Origin: Spirosoma linguale DSM 74
Lineage (GTDB): Bacteria; Bacteroidota; Bacteroidia; Cytophagales; Spirosomataceae
Reading direction: 5' to 3'
Length of the DNA: 64,000 bases
Assembly: GCA_000024525.1 (NCBI GenBank)
Contig: CP001771.1
Coordinates: 82,937-146,936, forward strand
In this document: positions 16,953 to 64,000 of the stretch, one piece after another
Layout of the letters: every line of letters starts with the position of its first letter
Position numbering within the stretch: position 1 is the first letter of the stretch
Notes under the pieces: model-generated
The model's input: the letters and a program-made list of their open reading frames with translations, nothing else
Database searches by the model: none
Told to the model about the DNA's origin: nothing
Made by a program: the position numbers and the translations under genes

Positions 16953-18194
16953 TTACAGTTTTACAAAAACGGGTGCGCCCACCTGATCGGGTAGAAAGTG
17001 CGAACAATCTTTACTGGTGAGATACTGAGTACGAACGTGTTGTTGAATCATCCCTGTATTCCCGTTGTAGGACAGGTAGTCCGGGGTTTCGTTATCTTGC
17101 GTCCAGTTCGTCACTAAATTCACAAACAGCCCAACAGCCGTTGAAGCCAGTACACCGTTAGGCCAAACTACCTGTGGTCGCCCGCCTACTTTGCCATATT
17201 TTGCTGCTTCCTGAGCAAGCTTTTTTTCGGTTAGAAAGCCAAAGCAACTCATGCACGGAAAGCCGGGCAACGATAAAATCACCTGCCCTGCGATAGCATG
17301 GGGATCGTCATCTATCTGATAAACGTCCATACCAATGTCGATGTACGGAATCAAAAAGCGCCGACACTCAGCTTCTGCCTGCTGCCTTTCTGCGTAAGAG
17401 TCTATATTCCCGAATACAACATCGCAGGCTTGTAACAAGTCTGGATTATCCTGCCAGCGGGTATTAACACGAACAACATTAGCTGTCGGTAGGATATTTT
17501 TGATAACCCGCTCCGCAACGGCCGTTTTAAGCAGAGCGTTCTTTACATCGCTAAACCATGCCCCTACTAAGCGGTTCAGGTTCGTGTCTTCGACTTTATC
17601 ATCGTCAAAAATGGCAATGTTCTTAACCCCTATGTGCGCCAATTGCTGGCCGATGTGTGAGCCTCCCCCTCCGTATCCGATGATACCAACTCTGATATTC
17701 TCGAATAAGAACTGGGACGATTCGCCCAAAAATGATTGTCGGTCATACACCCGGCTTTTAAATCCTTTTTCACCAGTGAAGGATAACAGCATGGGCTTTC
17801 CGACGACAGAAACCGCATTTGGTTGTAGAAACTCCTTCTCGCCAAGAATCTTGATTGATGCATAGAACGAATTCTGACTGAGTATCAGGAAACCGTTAGC
17901 TTGTGCAGGGGCAATGTTAGCAAGGCTCTCAACAACGCCCGGCAAACCGTTTTTATCCGTTCGACTTGGGCCGGGCTGACCTCGGTGGTCGTGTAAGTGG
18001 ACATGAAAGCAACCGCCCTTTCTCTCTAAGCTGCGTTGCATAGCCGCCCGGATTGCGACCGAATTTATTTTGGCACCAACCCGATCATCGTCAATATAGT
18101 TTTCATCTTCGACTGGGATGTATTCAGTAGCAATGATAAGAACCGTGTTGTCAGCAAGAACTTTGGGTAAATCTAAAAAAAGGGAGCAAATTCG
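16953..18194 (-). CDS. JAB-E1 fusion (ThiF-family adenylyltransferase with MPN/JAMM domain), 5'-truncated
   Basis: The frame is open from 18194 down to the stop at 16953, with no start codon in its first 50 codons; the first ATG (18039-18041) lies inside a domain. From that Met, His13, His15, Ser26 and Asp29 (FHVHLHDHRG then PSRTD) form a JAMM zinc site of deubiquitinase-like JAB peptidases. The E1 domain has a GYGGGGSHIG nucleotide loop at 122-131 and FDDDKVEDTNLNR at 145-157, with one CxxC (FPCMSC, 263-266). Such enzymes activate or remove ubiquitin-like proteins, and related genes occur in CBASS and Bil-type defence. No E2 or ubiquitin-like gene is present. The Tn3-type transposase ends 20 bp upstream and probably cut off the start. 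Confidence 0.75.
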   Translation of the reverse strand, partial: RICSLFLDLPKVLADNTVLIIATEYIPVEDENYIDDDRVGAKINSVAIRAAMQRSLERKGGCFHVHLHDHRGQPGPSRTDKNGLPGVVESLANIAPAQANGFLILSQNSFYASIKILGEKEFLQPNAVSVVGKPMLLSFTGEKGFKSRVYDRQSFLGESSQFLFENIRVGIIGYGGGGSHIGQQLAHIGVKNIAIFDDDKVEDTNLNRLVGAWFSDVKNALLKTAVAERVIKNILPTANVVRVNTRWQDNPDLLQACDVVFGNIDSYAERQQAEAECRRFLIPYIDIGMDVYQIDDDPHAIAGQVILSLPGFPCMSCFGFLTEKKLAQEAAKYGKVGGRPQVVWPNGVLASTAVGLFVNLVTNWTQDNETPDYLSYNGNTGMIQQHVRTQYLTSKDCSHFLPDQVGAPVFVKL

Positions 18195-18213
18195 TCACGT
18201 TCATTTTACGAAT
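18182..18213 (-). repeat. Candidate terminal inverted repeat of the Tn3-type element
   Basis: Directly after the transposase stop the sequence reads, outward to inward, GGGAGCAAATTCGTCACG and then TTCATTTTACG. Tn3-family ends are about 38 bp, begin with a G run and end next to the tnpA stop, as here. I found no matching inverted copy on the other side, so the call is tentative. Confidence 0.35.
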
Positions 18214-21200
18214 CTATTTTACTGTTCTGGCACTGAGTATCTCATGCAATTTAAAGATAGTCGATAGGGGGCTATCGTCGCTAAAATCATACTCGCCTTG
18301 CAGATTGACATGATGCCAGGTGTGGGTGTTAGTTTGCAGAATGGCTTCCAATAAAACCTTACGTTCCGCCGAATTCGCACAACGTTTGAGCTGTTCACTT
18401 AAGTACAAGAGATTCCAGTAATTGATGGCGTTCATGATTAAACGCTTACAGCCCTCAGCAATTAATTGTTCCTGATACGTAGCCCAGCCAAGCTCGCCAT
18501 TATTGCCCAGATTGACCGCTTTGGCAAACCGATTCGCATGTTCCACGCGGGTTAGAATTCCCTCAACGGTTTCCCTCAACTGGGGTTCGCTGATATAACG
18601 CAGAATGTATTCCGTCTTGAACAAACGCCCTAAATCCCGTAATGCCCGGTAAAGTGGATGCTGTCGGTCGTACGAATTAAGCCGCTTAAAAAGCTGTGAT
18701 GCTTTAGCGTAGCCTAGTTTGATCGTGGCCACCAAACGCAGAATCTCATCCCATTGACTGACAACATGCTCATAATCGATACGCGCATCTGGCCCAATCC
18801 GACACCCCTGCTCTTTATAAATTGATACGGCATCAAGGCTGTAAAGCCGCTGTCGATGGATCGAGGCAAAGCGAGGACGAAACTCCACGCCAATCAGGCC
18901 GGTAACCCCGAAGATAGGTTCCGAAAAGCCGTGCTGGTCGGTGGCGTGGGCGTCAGGTGTAATCACTTCATTATACGTAATGGCGTCCAGCATGTACGGG
19001 GCTTCCCGATCAGCGGCACTAAACGCCGTCGAATAAATTAACTGACCGGCTTCATCCAGATGGGAGTAAATCGTAATGCCCTGACCATTGCCAAAATACT
19101 TGTAAGAGGCTGAAGCCCGTAAGAGGGGAATTGATACGTCATATTTCTGACCATCCGAGCCGGTTTGAATAAAGTTTGCCCGGCGCCGAAACTGTTCGGT
19201 CAGGGGTAATTCGTTGCTTTTGGTTAGAATCAGATCGTTGGCCTTTAAGACGCTTTCGGGCGAAAAGTAGTGAGTTGCCACGGTTTCCAGACTGTTGATC
19301 GGAATGTTTTTGGAAATCATGGCCATTTTGCGAATGCCAATATTCTCCCCATAACCAATCAGGGCGGCTAACAGCAGGCTATTGTCGGGTCGAGACGGTT
19401 TGTGAGCGAAACCCTGGTGTTCAAAGGCGGACAGGAAGTCCGTTAACTCATCCACGTCCAATAGCACATCCCGCAACGAGATGACCCGGCTGGTTGGATA
19501 GAGATTGGTTTGAGGAGATGGTTGTTCTGATTCTCGCCCCCGGTAACGATGTAAATGCCAATCCCCGGCCTTGTCGAAATAAACCTGGGCGTTGGTGTTG
19601 AGGTGCTGGTTGGTCAGCCTAAACTGGGCGTTGAGTCGCTCATTGATCTTGGCTAACGTTGGTTCTGCTTTTACATAGCGAAGTAGATTAGCTTTTTGTA
19701 AATACGCCTGACGATGGATCTGCCACTGGCGACGGGGTATCAGGTATTCATCAAAAGCACGATGTTCATAGGAGGACAACACATTTAGACTGCCATCCCG
19801 TAAATGATCACGGATCTTCCAAAACAACAGCGCTTTGTAGAGTGATACCCGCAATTTACCGGTTAGGGTGAAGATGCGTTGCCGGTCCGCCATATCCAGA
19901 AAGTCGAGAGGAAGGTTATTACTTTGAGTGAGTTCACCTTTAGTGGCTTGAAACAGGCGAAGGGCGGCTACCAGGGCGGGGGGTGAGCTTTGCTCATCGA
20001 AAACTAAGGCTTGGACCACTCCTGCCACACGAGTCTGAAGCTTCAGCGACGCTCTTTCCAAAGCGTCATAGAAGTCATCCCGGTCATGAATAGACTGATT
20101 GACCGTTTTCAGATCGATCAATCGCTCTTTATCGGTTTGCAAATCGTTACCCGACAGGCGATGACGTTGAAATAAGTCCCGAATCTGGTCAATCTTCTGG
20201 GCAGCCTCCAGGCCCGGCAAATCAACGATTTCTTCGATCTGAACTAGCGCCTGAATATGGATGTCGCTCCGCCGGGTGACCCGGTGAACCAACTGGGCGT
20301 TGGCGTATCGGCTTTCGAACTGCTCATCCTTGAGGGTTTGTTCACATTCATTGAGAATGTTGGTTACCGCCTGTCGCAGGGTGAGCACTAATGCGTCACC
20401 CACACTTAAGTACTGATGAATAATAAATGCAATCAGTCGTAAGTACCGTTCGCTGGTGCGTTGAACAGTCTGTTTGGACTGGGTGTCTAATACGTATTGC
20501 GCATAATAGCGGATGGCATCATCCGATAAATTTAATCGGACAATCAAGGGAGCCAGCTGAGAAAAGAGTAGTTTTAATTCCCGGAATAGCTCGACCCGCT
20601 GTTTAATTTGACCTGGCTGCATCGACTGACTGATTCGTTTGAAGTGAGTCAGTCGATACGGAAATAACTGAGTAGCTGAACCGGCTGGGCTGCTCTGCCG
20701 CCCCAACAGCGTATCCAATAATTGGCTGTCGTTTTCCTGGAGGTAGCGGTCAATAATTTGCTCCAGATTCGCTTGAAAGGATTGCAGCGCTTCAATTAGG
20801 ATAAGCCGCAACGTATTATAGGGGGGTATTTCAATCCGGCGTTCCTGCAAATAACCCGTCAGGGCATCCAACACTAGAGCAGGGCGGGTTTGGAGGTGGG
20901 CCAATCGCTGGGCTTCTACCAGTAATTCCTGCTCGTGGGTCCGATCAAAAGCCTGATAGCCTAAATGAGCTAAAATGGTTTCTCGGTGGCGGAAGGCTGT
21001 CCGGCTGCGGGTATATTTAGTTAAATCGATTTGGTTGGGATCAAGCTGCGTTCTTGCACAGAGCCAATTGATGATGTCAGGCTCAAATCGATCGGCCACG
21101 AAGAAGCGGTTAGTGATTCGGAAGTAGCCAAGTTGTAGCAAAAAGCCGATTTTATTGGTTGAGGATTGGATTTGCCCCATATAGGTCGTAGCCCAGGTTG

Positions 21201-21297
21201 GCAAATCCAGCAAGATGGTTCGGTGCTGTTGAGTTAATACAGGCGGGGAATCAAATCGAATTCGCTCTTCAGCAGAGATAAAGGCTCGACGTGGCAT
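18214..21297 (-). CDS. tnpA: Tn3-family transposase TnpA
   Basis: A 1027-residue transposase, full length for the family. The N-terminal region (EERIRFDSPPVLTQQHR onward) matches the DUF4158 DNA-binding part. The C-terminal third holds the DDE core: Asp715 in SDGQKYD, Asp787 in TDQHGFSEPIFG, and a glutamate further on in the region of residues 917-935 (GNNGELGWATYQEQ). The enzyme moves DNA by replicative transposition through a cointegrate. No resolvase gene or res site is recognisable nearby, so the element may be incomplete. It has no stops or frameshifts and lies upstream of, and in the same direction as, the truncated JAB-E1 gene. Confidence 0.95.
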   Translation of the reverse strand: MPRRAFISAEERIRFDSPPVLTQQHRTILLDLPTWATTYMGQIQSSTNKIGFLLQLGYFRITNRFFVADRFEPDIINWLCARTQLDPNQIDLTKYTRSRTAFRHRETILAHLGYQAFDRTHEQELLVEAQRLAHLQTRPALVLDALTGYLQERRIEIPPYNTLRLILIEALQSFQANLEQIIDRYLQENDSQLLDTLLGRQSSPAGSATQLFPYRLTHFKRISQSMQPGQIKQRVELFRELKLLFSQLAPLIVRLNLSDDAIRYYAQYVLDTQSKQTVQRTSERYLRLIAFIIHQYLSVGDALVLTLRQAVTNILNECEQTLKDEQFESRYANAQLVHRVTRRSDIHIQALVQIEEIVDLPGLEAAQKIDQIRDLFQRHRLSGNDLQTDKERLIDLKTVNQSIHDRDDFYDALERASLKLQTRVAGVVQALVFDEQSSPPALVAALRLFQATKGELTQSNNLPLDFLDMADRQRIFTLTGKLRVSLYKALLFWKIRDHLRDGSLNVLSSYEHRAFDEYLIPRRQWQIHRQAYLQKANLLRYVKAEPTLAKINERLNAQFRLTNQHLNTNAQVYFDKAGDWHLHRYRGRESEQPSPQTNLYPTSRVISLRDVLLDVDELTDFLSAFEHQGFAHKPSRPDNSLLLAALIGYGENIGIRKMAMISKNIPINSLETVATHYFSPESVLKANDLILTKSNELPLTEQFRRRANFIQTGSDGQKYDVSIPLLRASASYKYFGNGQGITIYSHLDEAGQLIYSTAFSAADREAPYMLDAITYNEVITPDAHATDQHGFSEPIFGVTGLIGVEFRPRFASIHRQRLYSLDAVSIYKEQGCRIGPDARIDYEHVVSQWDEILRLVATIKLGYAKASQLFKRLNSYDRQHPLYRALRDLGRLFKTEYILRYISEPQLRETVEGILTRVEHANRFAKAVNLGNNGELGWATYQEQLIAEGCKRLIMNAINYWNLLYLSEQLKRCANSAERKVLLEAILQTNTHTWHHVNLQGEYDFSDDSPLSTIFKLHEILSARTVK

Positions 21298-60155: not shown

Positions 60156-60428
60156 TATGCACAATGGGTGACTATCGTTAAACGGTTTCTTTATCTGTTT
60201 CGCTGATTTTGTCAACAGATGCATCTGCTTGCTGACGATCTGCCAACGTTTGACTGTAAAAGGATTCTAGTTCAGATAGTCGGTCAAGTATAGCTATCGG
60301 TACTAAAGCGGCTACCCTCTTTTGTCCTTTTGTCAGCACGAAAGACTTATTTGCATAATAGGTCTGGTTAATGTATTCACCAACCTGCCGACGAAATTCG
60401 TTCATGGCTACATTTTCCATTGTGCATA
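60156..60428. repeat. 12-bp inverted repeats flanking the Phd-like gene
   Basis: TATGCACAATGG at 60156-60167 and its exact complement CCATTGTGCATA at 60417-60428 enclose the gene; the right copy includes its start codon. A third GTGCATA lies at about 60447. They may be Phd operators on both sides or the ends of a small mobile cassette. Confidence 0.5.
60178..60420 (-). CDS. Phd/YefM-type antitoxin-like protein without toxin
   Basis: An 80-residue protein. FRRQVGEYINQTYYANKSFVLTKGQKRVAAL, here in parts FRRQVGEYINQTYY and KSFVLTKGQKRVAALVPI, is the Phd/YefM fold that binds DNA and then a toxin through its C-terminal tail. No toxin ORF (Doc, YoeB, RelE or PIN) lies beside it on either side. It may be a solitary regulator or a leftover. 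The 12-bp inverted repeats TATGCACAATGG / CCATTGTGCATA flank it; one covers its start codon. Confidence 0.75.
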   Translation of the reverse strand: MENVAMNEFRRQVGEYINQTYYANKSFVLTKGQKRVAALVPIAILDRLSELESFYSQTLADRQQADASVDKISETDKETV

Positions 60429-60713: not shown

Positions 60714-61703
60714 ATGGATAAGCAAACTGTGTCCTTTTTGCCTATTACGCAAAACGATCCATTTTCGTTGGTCCCTTTGCCTCAGTTGAGTGGGGACCAG
60801 CAGAAGTATTTGCTGAAAGGGTTACAGGGAGCGGCTAATACCGAGCGAGCGTACCGAGCTGACCTAAATCATTATACTACCTGGTGCCAGCAGCAGGGGG
60901 TGGACGCTTTGCCCGCTACGTCGGCTGTGTTGGGAGAGTATGTCTCAGCCCTGGGTCCGAAGCGCAAGTGGGCAACTATCGCGCGTCGACTTTCGGCCGT
61001 GCGCAAATGGCATGAATTGCTTGACCTACCCAGCCCGGTTGATGATCGCTGGTTAAAGGCGACACTGAAAGGTATCCAGCGGGAACATGGTACCCATGCT
61101 GAGCAGGCACCTGCGTTTGGCGCTAATCAGTTGAAAGGTATTCTGCGTAAACTTGTCACCGATAGTAAGGGGGTACCCCGGTTTGGACCACTGCGTGATA
61201 AAGTCGTTTTGCTGCTGGGTTTTACGGGGGCCTTTCGCCGGTCGGAGCTGGTGGCGCTCAATGTCGAGCAACTTCATTTTGGTGAGGACGGTGTGGTGAT
61301 TACATACTACGGAAGTAAAACCAATCAGATAGGACAGCGAGAAGAAAAGGCCCTTTTTTATAGTCCCGATACTCAGATTTGTCCCGTGCGTACATTACAG
61401 AAATGGGTAGCTCTGCTGGAACGAACCAATGGCCCCTTATTAGTAAGAATACGAAAGGGCAACGAACTAACCGAGGAGCGTTTGACCGATCAGTCGATTG
61501 GAGCCATTGTTAAAAAGCATGTGGGTGACCGATTCTCAGCGCATTCGATGCGGGCCTCATTTGTGACAACGGCCAAGCTCAACGGGGCTGATGATTCAGA
61601 AATCATGCAACAGACCAAGCACAAAACCAGCGCCATGATCCGAAGGTATACCCGATTAGATTCGATCAAGCAGCATAACGCGGCTAAGAAGTTAGGCTGG
61701 TAA
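60714..61703 (+). CDS. Tyrosine recombinase/integrase
   Basis: A 329-residue protein with an N-terminal SAM-like core-binding domain (about 30-115, AANTERAYRADLNHYTTWCQ) and a catalytic domain. Active-site residues: Arg175 (GAFRRSELVAL), His277 and Arg280 (AHSMRASF), His303 (TKHKTS) and Tyr312 (RRYTR). All key residues are present, so it should be active. Such enzymes integrate or excise mobile DNA. The GHKL-nuclease gene follows 114 bp later in the same direction and is a likely cargo gene. No attachment site could be identified by eye. Confidence 0.93.
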   Translation: MDKQTVSFLPITQNDPFSLVPLPQLSGDQQKYLLKGLQGAANTERAYRADLNHYTTWCQQQGVDALPATSAVLGEYVSALGPKRKWATIARRLSAVRKWHELLDLPSPVDDRWLKATLKGIQREHGTHAEQAPAFGANQLKGILRKLVTDSKGVPRFGPLRDKVVLLLGFTGAFRRSELVALNVEQLHFGEDGVVITYYGSKTNQIGQREEKALFYSPDTQICPVRTLQKWVALLERTNGPLLVRIRKGNELTEERLTDQSIGAIVKKHVGDRFSAHSMRASFVTTAKLNGADDSEIMQQTKHKTSAMIRRYTRLDSIKQHNAAKKLGW

Positions 61704-61817: not shown

Positions 61818-63869
61818 ATGGAAGCTGTCATTTCAAATAACGAATTTATAACTAACATTGCTGGGAGAGTACGCAATCTGAATCTACCCCTAAAAAAAGC
61901 TTTGTGGCCATTATTTGAAGTTGTCAGCAACTCAATACATGCTATTGAAGAGCTAGGCTCAACGAAGAAAGGAAAAATAAATATAACACTAGATCGGGAA
62001 GGTCATGACGAAGCCTTAGTTTCTCTCGGCGATGTAAATCAGTATTTTATTAAATCGTTTATTATTACGGATAATGGCATTGGCTTTAATGAACGAAATT
62101 ATAAATCGTTCCTCACGGCAGAATCAGATTATAAAGAAGATAAAGGATCAAAAGGTATTGGGAGATTTGTCTGTTTAAAAGCATTTAAAAAAATAGAATA
62201 TAGTAGCACCTATCAGAATAATTTAGGCGAAACTGAAATTAGAAATTTCACATTAAAAGCGTATGGTAAGGGCTTTGATGAAGAGCCCATTGTAAAATCA
62301 GAGGCTAGGAAAGAGTCAGGTACTAAAGTCATACTTAATTCATTTTATGATGAATATAAGAACCACTGCCCGAAGTCAATTGATGAAATAGCAGAACTTA
62401 TAATAGAGCATTTCTTTATCTATTTTATTGAAGGTAAATGCCCGATCATTACGATCATTGATACAAATGGAAATCAGGTTACGTTACAGGAAAAGTTTGG
62501 TATAGATTTATTACCTAACTTAATTAAACGAACCTTTAAAATTAAAAATACTGAGTTTACTCTTAATTTATTGTTAGTGGATAAAACCGAAGGTGGTCAC
62601 CGGGTACATTATTGTGGAAACTCTAGGGATGTTGTCAATGAACCTATCAGCAAATATATTCCTGATTTGAAAAGTAACGTCTACTTAGTTGAAAGTGATC
62701 AAAAGAACCTCAAAGTTTACATTACCTCCACATATTTGGACAATAACGTCGGGAATGAGCGGACTCGGTTTAATTTCCCAGACAATGAGGAAGATGCTCC
62801 CTATGATTATATTGTCACGTTTGAAGATATAAAAAAACAAATAGAACACGAACTGGAAGAAGAACTAAAAACTCCGTTAGAAGCGCTTAGAGAGCAAAAG
62901 ATGGCGTCTGTTAAAAGACATGTCGAACAATATGCTCCTCAATTCAAATACGTGTTAAAGTATAAAGAGGATGAAGTGAAAAAATTACCAGCTACTCTGA
63001 CGGGAGAAAAACTTGATGTCGAACTATTTAAGATACAACAGAAACTGGAACTCGATACGAAGATTCTCGGCAATGAAGTGCTAAATGGCCATGACTACAA
63101 AAACGTTGAAGAGTATCAAAAAGCATACGATCAGTATCTGGAACAATCTAATGATATTGGCAAATCGAATCTAGTTAAGTATGTAATACATAGACGAGCA
63201 ATTATTGATTTATTAAATAAATACTTAGGTGAGGAAGGAGATAAATTTCAGAGCGAAAAAACAATTCATGAAATTTTTTTTCCTATAAAGAAAGAGTCTG
63301 ATGATGTAAAATATGAACAACAAAACTTATGGCTTATCGATGAACGGCTTGCCTATCACTATTACTTGGCATCCGACAAACCAATGGCTGACATGCCTGT
63401 TCTAGAAAATATTAAAACGACTGATCGACCGGACTTATTTATTTTTAATAGCAGCTTTGCCTTTGTCAATGAAGAGGCCCCTTTTAACTCGTTTATTATA
63501 GTGGAGTTCAAGAAACCTGAGCGGAATGATTATTCGGACAGGGATGAGAAAAAGAATCCTGTTGATCAGGTGATAGATTATATTGGTAAGTTAAGAAGTG
63601 GTTCGGCGTTAGATAGAAGAGGTAAATTTATTCAGGTTTCTGATAAGGATAAAATACCCTTTTATGCCTATGTTATTTGTGATTTCAATCCTAAACTTAT
63701 TAATATTCTAACTACCAGAGACTATATAATCACGCCAGATGGGATGGGTTATTTTTATTATCACAAACAATTTAATGCCTATATAGAGGTGATTTCTTAT
63801 CAAAAGCTAGTTAAAGATGCAAGAAATAGAAATCGAATTCTTTTTGAAAGGCTAGGGATATCCGTTTGA
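61818..63869 (+). CDS. GHKL-type ATPase fused to a PD-(D/E)XK nuclease-like domain (putative defence gene)
   Basis: A 683-residue protein with the GHKL ATPase fold at the N-terminus: the N-box helix LWPLFEVVSNSIHAIEE (Glu34, Asn38), G1 box DNGIGF (85-90), and G2 box GSKGIGRF (110-117). A transducer-like region (to about 330) is followed by a long charged helical part (about 345-450). Near the C-terminus RPDLFIF (Asp539) and IIVEFKKPE (Glu563, Lys565) form a PD-(D/E)XK site, with VDQVIDYIGKLR as the usual trailing helix. Hsp90/MutL-like ATPase plus nuclease suggests ATP-gated DNA cutting. AT-rich codon use unlike the rest, and a recombinase next door, point to recent transfer. I know no described system with exactly this make-up. 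Confidence 0.75.
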   Translation: MEAVISNNEFITNIAGRVRNLNLPLKKALWPLFEVVSNSIHAIEELGSTKKGKINITLDREGHDEALVSLGDVNQYFIKSFIITDNGIGFNERNYKSFLTAESDYKEDKGSKGIGRFVCLKAFKKIEYSSTYQNNLGETEIRNFTLKAYGKGFDEEPIVKSEARKESGTKVILNSFYDEYKNHCPKSIDEIAELIIEHFFIYFIEGKCPIITIIDTNGNQVTLQEKFGIDLLPNLIKRTFKIKNTEFTLNLLLVDKTEGGHRVHYCGNSRDVVNEPISKYIPDLKSNVYLVESDQKNLKVYITSTYLDNNVGNERTRFNFPDNEEDAPYDYIVTFEDIKKQIEHELEEELKTPLEALREQKMASVKRHVEQYAPQFKYVLKYKEDEVKKLPATLTGEKLDVELFKIQQKLELDTKILGNEVLNGHDYKNVEEYQKAYDQYLEQSNDIGKSNLVKYVIHRRAIIDLLNKYLGEEGDKFQSEKTIHEIFFPIKKESDDVKYEQQNLWLIDERLAYHYYLASDKPMADMPVLENIKTTDRPDLFIFNSSFAFVNEEAPFNSFIIVEFKKPERNDYSDRDEKKNPVDQVIDYIGKLRSGSALDRRGKFIQVSDKDKIPFYAYVICDFNPKLINILTTRDYIITPDGMGYFYYHKQFNAYIEVISYQKLVKDARNRNRILFERLGISV

Positions 63870-63883
63870 AGTAGGGAAGTTCT

Positions 63884-64000
63884 GTGGAAGAGTACGTCAT
63901 GCACAGTCAGTACTACATCCTTAATGCCTTTTGTAAACTTGAGAATTATTTACACAAATCATCTCTGATAATGTCTATTTCTGGCAGTAAAAGTGCACTA
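63884..64000 (+). CDS. Start of an unrecognised gene, cut by the window end
   Basis: A frame opens with GTG 63884 (or ATG 63899) and stays open to the last base: 39 codons, including MHSQYYILNAFCKLENYLHK. It begins 14 bp after the GHKL-nuclease gene on the same strand and has similar AT-rich codons, so it may be its operon partner. Too short to classify. Confidence 0.4.
   Translation, partial: MEEYVMHSQYYILNAFCKLENYLHKSSLIMSISGSKSAL

Follow-up and report, generated by a model that had tools for sequence, protein, structure and literature searches.

A predicted GHKL ATPase–nuclease of paraMORC3 / VcSduA-like layout carried by a Tn3-family transposon of Spirosoma linguale DSM 74

The paraMORC families were placed mainly in restriction systems by Iyer, Abhiman and Aravind (2008, PMC2292703), who describe paraMORC3 as a GHKL ATPase domain followed by an S5 domain and a C-terminal restriction-fold domain with an E-D-ExK set of residues, its stand-alone subset coming mainly from proteobacteria and Bacteroidetes. 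VcSduA of Vibrio cholerae (A1552 VC_00276), which combines a GHKL domain with a DUF4263 nuclease domain, is reported to protect Escherichia coli against Drexlerviridae (PMC12137116). As described in the same source, the protection requires E27 and K557, spares the host and is obtained with VcSduA alone; the protein was modelled as a dimer and assigned to Shedu type I-D, and such proteins were formerly annotated as paraMORC3. Here, we describe a gene of this layout from Spirosoma linguale DSM 74. It lies in a stretch of 64,000 nucleotides (hereafter the window, meaning the whole stretch of DNA that was analysed) at the end of contig C3 (146,936 bases), in a genome of 8.49 Mb in nine contigs, of which C1 accounts for 8.08 Mb. 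The product of the gene is very probably an anti-phage nuclease of the paraMORC3 / VcSduA-like kind that acts as a single protein. Its domain layout, its conserved catalytic residues, the lack of a common partner and its mobility are shown below. A preliminary description of this DNA had read a GHKL ATPase–PD-(D/E)XK fusion in a mobile context with a likely defence function, and is upheld on these points. The Shedu types are reportedly the subject of a study by Gu et al. of 2025.

The gene, its protein and their homologues

The gene is a complete open reading frame on the forward strand (61818–63869, +) encoding 683 amino acids (aa), as seen from the frame itself, its homologues, structure models and fold searches. 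It stops at 63869 and not at 64000, where the preliminary description had ended the feature. Its G+C content is 33.9%, compared with 51.1% in the adjoining recombinase gene and 50–56% per kb across 45–60 kb of the window, which bears out the AT-richness that had been pointed out. According to the models, residues ~1–330 likely form a GHKL ATPase with a transducer (S5) domain, of the Hsp90/topoisomerase VI B/MutL type, residues ~335–470 likely form a long helical linker, and residues ~475–683 (63240–63866, +) likely form a Shedu-like PD-(D/E)XK nuclease.

The GHKL boxes E34/N38, D85-x-G87-x-G89 and G110-x-x-G113-x-G115 (61917–62162, +) are located on invariant columns of an alignment of 33 rows (A1), in which E563 and K565 are also invariant and D539 is present in at least 90%. 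The three boxes and the D...ExK signature previously noted in one 683-residue protein are thus confirmed. The nuclease domain contains E480, D539, E563-x-K565, Q584 and Y588, of which E480, D539 and E563-x-K565 correspond to the E-D-ExK set of paraMORC3. Conservation was further examined in 240 listed homologues, consisting of 120 from the search with the window protein and 120 from a search with the Vibrio fluvialis homologue, many of the latter being close variants. E34 is present in 238/240 and N38, D85, G87, G89 and G113 in 239/240 each, the remainder being gaps; D539, E563 and K565 are each present in 239/240. In addition, all 34 loci of the neighbour survey given below retain the six GHKL sites, D539 and K565, and 33 of them retain E563. 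The remaining locus, L031, carries A for the nuclease glutamate and belongs to one of two genomes of one genus (G270 and G392; L026, L028–L031, L034) that give three matches each; in L034, the gene is split into two frames.

Pfam HATPase_c (E 4e-4) and HATPase_c_3 (E 5e-4) match the protein, both below the curated cut-offs, and Pfam, NCBIfam and PADLOC assign the window protein to no family apart from this weak HATPase_c match. A sequence search of solved structures yielded nothing significant. In the Foldseek search, MutL LN40, TopoVI-B and Hsp90 were matched over ~350–550 columns with E-values of ~1e-10 to 1e-9, the template modelling scores being modest (~0.2–0.5), and an S5/transducer domain was found behind the GHKL domain, as in paraMORC3.

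The search gave 348 homologues at E≤1e-3, more than chance would provide; most of the 120 that were listed cover the full length, and their named sources include Spirosoma, Chitinophaga and other Bacteroidota. With the V. fluvialis homologue as the query, 2532 proteins were scored at the same threshold and 120 were listed. This homologue (E27, K556) aligns with the window protein over 98% at 34.0%. The spacing between the GHKL glutamate and the nuclease lysine is 531 in the window protein, compared with 530 in VcSduA (E27, K557), and falls in the range of 507–540 in 23 proteins, with a value of 478 in L050. The exact pair of E27 and K557 occurs in 0/240 listed homologues, and the VcSduA sequence is absent among the matches listed. 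The preliminary description had found the layout to match no named system; this is not upheld, because paraMORC3 and VcSduA, which have this layout, had been described earlier (PMC2292703; PMC12137116) and the spacings are 530 and 531.

The homologues are mostly labelled "ATP-binding protein" or "hypothetical protein" by their sources. The homologue of phage vB_RanS_PJN03 (L040:2485–4509), which adjoins a phage integrase gene, is recorded as an N-acetylmuramoyl-L-alanine amidase, which looks like a misannotation. A 99% identical protein (P0001) appears among the matches listed under a metagenome-assembled genome (MAG) of Stigonema ocellatum and is perhaps a Spirosoma sequence in a cyanobacterial assembly.

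Kinship with Shedu and neighbours of the homologues

The relation of the nuclease domain to Shedu was evaluated by comparing profiles. The C-terminal profile of the family (72 rows) matches a Shedu profile, built from nine proteins from genomes of the same phylum and one from V. fluvialis, at 93.4%, with an E-value of 2.4e-7 for the single comparison, over 181 aligned columns. The control profiles gave 8.9% for HsdR, 0.2% for HsdM, 0.2% for integrases, 0.1% for the reversed Shedu profile and 4.7% for the best of 20 column-shuffled profiles. These profile controls are the valid ones, since single-sequence controls are weak where single Shedu sequences score low as well. A remote profile similarity is accompanied by a predicted Shedu nuclease fold, Shedu being ranked first for the nuclease model only by a second look with VIA-align.

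A second kind of GHKL–Shedu fusion, with the shorter spacing, was observed in another genome of the phylum (L050:123–1883). This bridging protein of 587 aa combines a GHKL domain with a partial match to SduA_C (model positions 3–65 of 159) that lies above the Pfam cut-off (32 vs 27 bits), and it matches the family profiles at 90.4% for the nuclease and 89.7% for the GHKL part.

The preliminary description had proposed a partner gene downstream. There is indeed an open frame (63884–64000, +) whose GTG lies at 63884, 14 base pairs (bp) past the stop; it is still open at the edge of the window, where the contig also ends. In the near-identical loci L003 and L004, however, it closes after 45 codons, and the GTG and the next ATG are GTA and ATA in L003; the frame shows no sign of being a gene and, judged from these sequences, is probably not one. 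Across the 34 loci of the survey (L003 was left out as the same element as L004, L006 as a partial gene and L034 because its gene is in two frames), a frame of 60 aa or more on the same strand starts within 150 bp downstream in 13, and some of these frames are probably not genes. At E≤1e-3, these downstream frames contain one related pair, from the viral contigs L083 and L087 (E ~1e-93), whose upstream neighbours are also similar by eye. Such frames upstream occur in 22/34 loci, none related to another. A conserved partner gene is therefore lacking across the 34 loci, as in VcSduA-like (type I-D) systems.

Ten annotated records, picked to span genera, were read for neighbours: type I restriction genes are near the homologue in V. 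fluvialis, Salinivibrio and R. aetherivorans, and other defence neighbours are CBASS-like genes (A. johnsonii), SIR2 and XamI (Manganitrophus), AbiE (Hymenobacter) and Abi (Phaeobacter). The remaining neighbours are genes for an AAA ATPase and a DUF4365 protein (Paraburkholderia), the integrase gene (phage), and insertion sequences with other genes that bear no defence label (A. schindleri); the downstream frames of L042 include an annotated DUF4365 gene. In V. fluvialis, a separate gene annotated "Shedu immune nuclease family protein" lies directly upstream of the homologue, and on this IncC plasmid (L035:1–10007) type I restriction genes, the annotated Shedu nuclease and the GHKL–nuclease gene form one run, which recurs in Salinivibrio (L092) without the Shedu gene. 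A Pfam scan of 72 neighbours from 13 loci gave N6_Mtase 3, HSDR_N 3, Methylase_S 2 and Mrr_cat 2, where the PADLOC and Pfam neighbour scans are counts per family, not per locus, over the first 25 families. Among the relatives themselves, PADLOC gave a single partial match, TmtA (0.0028) on L041.

Several observations weigh against the assignment as a VcSduA-like defence nuclease. The window protein gives no hit with Pfam SduA_C (DUF4263, PF14082) at E≤10, only 2/33 relatives give a hit, a weak one (best 0.0053), and 0/9 more distant ones do; PADLOC reports nothing for the window protein; and single Shedu sequences score 0.2–27.8% against the family profile, so that it is profiles and fold that carry the link to Shedu. 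The quality of the nuclease model is only moderate, with a predicted local distance difference test value (pLDDT) of 71 and a predicted template modelling score (pTM) of 0.66, model residues 84–94 and 107–126 being below 50. With this model, plain Foldseek returned nothing at E≤0.001, the best match being McrC (E 0.15), and in VIA-align E. coli SduA is level with the nickase Nt.BspD6I (7.1). VcSduA comes from another phylum and replicon, and the window protein is likened to it, as described in PMC12137116, by layout and spacing. Several loci (e.g. L029 and L030) have no evident defence neighbour by eye, some loci showing only ordinary genes, and in L025, L035 and L092 the gene lies within a run of type I restriction genes. 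Because the SduA_C model is not matched, the gene is filed as paraMORC3 / VcSduA-like, with kinship to Shedu by remote homology only.

The location in type I restriction runs suggests that some members of the family may work together with these systems, and the gene could then be an accessory of type I restriction–modification, in which the ATPase remodels, or the nuclease finishes, the DNA of an HsdRMS encoded elsewhere in the genome. In L025, the gene is directly preceded by hsdS, with hsdM lying further upstream, and is followed by NYN and hsdR; the runs of L035 and L092 include hsdR, M and S; type I genes lie ~2.3 kb away in L039; and hsdR is within ~3.5 kb in L033, together with AbiEii. 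The placing of the paraMORC families mainly in restriction systems (PMC2292703) points the same way. However, the neighbours are non-recurrent over the 34 loci with the exception of the one phage pair, no hsd gene was found beside the gene in a search that covered the window and not the rest of the genome, and VcSduA is reported to work alone (PMC12137116), so that such an accessory role is improbable for the window gene.

The Tn3-family transposon and its recombinase

The last 12 kb of the window show 99.3% identity to S. oryzae (L003) and 99.4% to a Spirosoma MAG (L004), and the first 8 kb match these two genomes in short pieces only, at 68–76%. A 6-kb chromosomal sample gave 69–78% to S. 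oryzae and 81–94% to the MAG. In both relatives, the shared segment extends from window position 18164/18165, across the contig join, to C3:548/549, and it is composed of four gapped pieces in S. oryzae (99.2, 97.2, 89.9 over 0.9 kb, and 99.4%) and two in the MAG (97.1 and 99.4%). Outside the segment, five pieces of 0.6–3.4 kb are common to C3 and the S. oryzae contig, at 73–85%; the comparison with the MAG contig covered 140 of its 249 kb. Past both ends, a blastn comparison of the three sequences over 4 kb gave no similarity. That both relatives match without a break across the join supports C3 being a circle.

The segment is a Tn3-family transposon (18165–64000 in the window, continuing to C3:548), with the same ends and different flanks in three replicons. 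Its ends are perfect 34-bp inverted repeats (left, 18165–18198, +; right, C3:515–548, outside the window), and 6-bp direct repeats (AACTTT, CGTAAG and ATATGT) flank 3/3 sites. A transposase of 1027 aa is encoded at 18214–21297 (−; PF01526 DDE_Tnp_Tn3, 1.8e-98; PF13700, 1.9e-24), so that a DDE transposase, terminal inverted repeats and a short target duplication, which characterise the family, are all present; repeats of ~38 bp and a 5-bp duplication are usual for Tn3. The length in this genome is 46,384 bp by arithmetic that takes C3 to be circular. Both ends occur in 3/36 genomes of the genus; in three more there is just one related end, which differs at one or two positions. The transposon, of which three near-identical copies with 6-bp target duplications lie in Spirosoma genomes, also carries a COX1 oxidase, a cytochrome c, an RND efflux pump, a Na/Ca exchanger, a Crp-type regulator, an aquaporin-type channel, an enolase, a universal stress protein and a CLC channel. 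A Phd/YefM-like antitoxin at 60178–60420 (PF02604, below cut-off) has no evident toxin adjoining.

A tyrosine recombinase of 329 aa, complete as previously described, is encoded inside the transposon just before the gene (60714–61703, +; PF00589, 3.5e-10; PF02899, 3.3e-9). Since the shared element with the same ends in three replicons spans both, the AT-rich GHKL–nuclease gene and the recombinase are cargo or parts of the transposon, and the recombinase may be the transposon's own resolvase. The earlier wording of a gene "behind an integrase" is not upheld: the recombinase sits inside a 46-kb transposon and does not usually accompany members of the family. Recombinase-like frames occur in 6/34 loci, one of which (L004) is the window's own element; a close relative of the window recombinase was seen near just one further homologue of the survey, in Hymenobacter (L036, 1,051 bp away), and none was found within the 14.7 kb examined around a 69% identical gene copy (L005). 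The integrase was accordingly rejected as a trait of the family.

The gene stop (C3:146805) lies 679 bp short of the transposon's right end, and this position, the adjoining recombinase and the retention of the gene in all three copies would suit a gene that serves the transposon together with the recombinase, in transposition control, cointegrate resolution or target immunity. Such a service is highly improbable, as most homologues have no such recombinase.

Proposed function and comparison with known systems

As a single-protein anti-phage nuclease, the protein would be dimeric, like the VcSduA model (PMC12137116). ATP bound at E34/N38 would join the N-terminal domains and close a clamp, as in other GHKL proteins, and invading DNA held in the clamp would license the nuclease, the trigger possibly being an end, a structure or a protein. 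By analogy with VcSduA, D539, E563 and K565 would then cut the DNA with a metal ion and the cell would survive, with no need for a partner gene. In Spirosoma, the gene is carried close to the transposon's right end, as cargo alongside efflux, respiratory and stress genes. A wider proposal, which is rather doubtful, sees the GHKL head as an ATP-gated DNA clamp. The clamp would respond to the topology or to the ends of incoming DNA by activating the Shedu nuclease, a topoisomerase-like entry gate turned immune sensor, and phage defence would be spread along with those genes by the large, recently moving transposon that has this sensor as cargo. A housekeeping role as a MutL-like DNA repair protein would fit the GHKL fold near MutL but is scarcely credible, given the mobility, the Shedu-type nuclease and a sporadic distribution (10/395; 4/36), which also disfavours a core housekeeping gene.

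A Shedu variant that has been characterised but is little known is thereby extended to plasmids of Bacteroidota and to a transposon of the Tn3 family. Because the Pfam Shedu model and PADLOC miss the window protein, such genes may be under-counted, and a family profile would find them; what is useful in the analysis is the transposon context, together with this blind spot in the profiles now in use.

Compared with known systems, MutL, Hsp90 and topoisomerase VI B share the ATPase and transducer fold with the window protein; they have housekeeping roles and are not known to have a PD-(D/E)XK domain in the same chain. In SduA of B. cereus and E. coli, the N-terminal parts are not known to be GHKL ATPases. 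The Pfam SduA_C model of these Shedu proteins (PDB 8ti8, 8ti9, 8ps4 and 8ps5) has no direct match to the window protein. The likeness to paraMORC3, which is by description, covers the GHKL, S5 and C-terminal restriction-fold domains with E-D-ExK, and in PMC2292703 the family is described from sequence analysis. VcSduA, as presented in PMC12137116, likewise joins a GHKL ATPase and a PD-(D/E)XK nuclease in one chain, as a single gene on a mobile island. On sequence grounds, the window gene has the predicted layout of paraMORC3 and of the characterised VcSduA Shedu, and its distance to known systems appears small.
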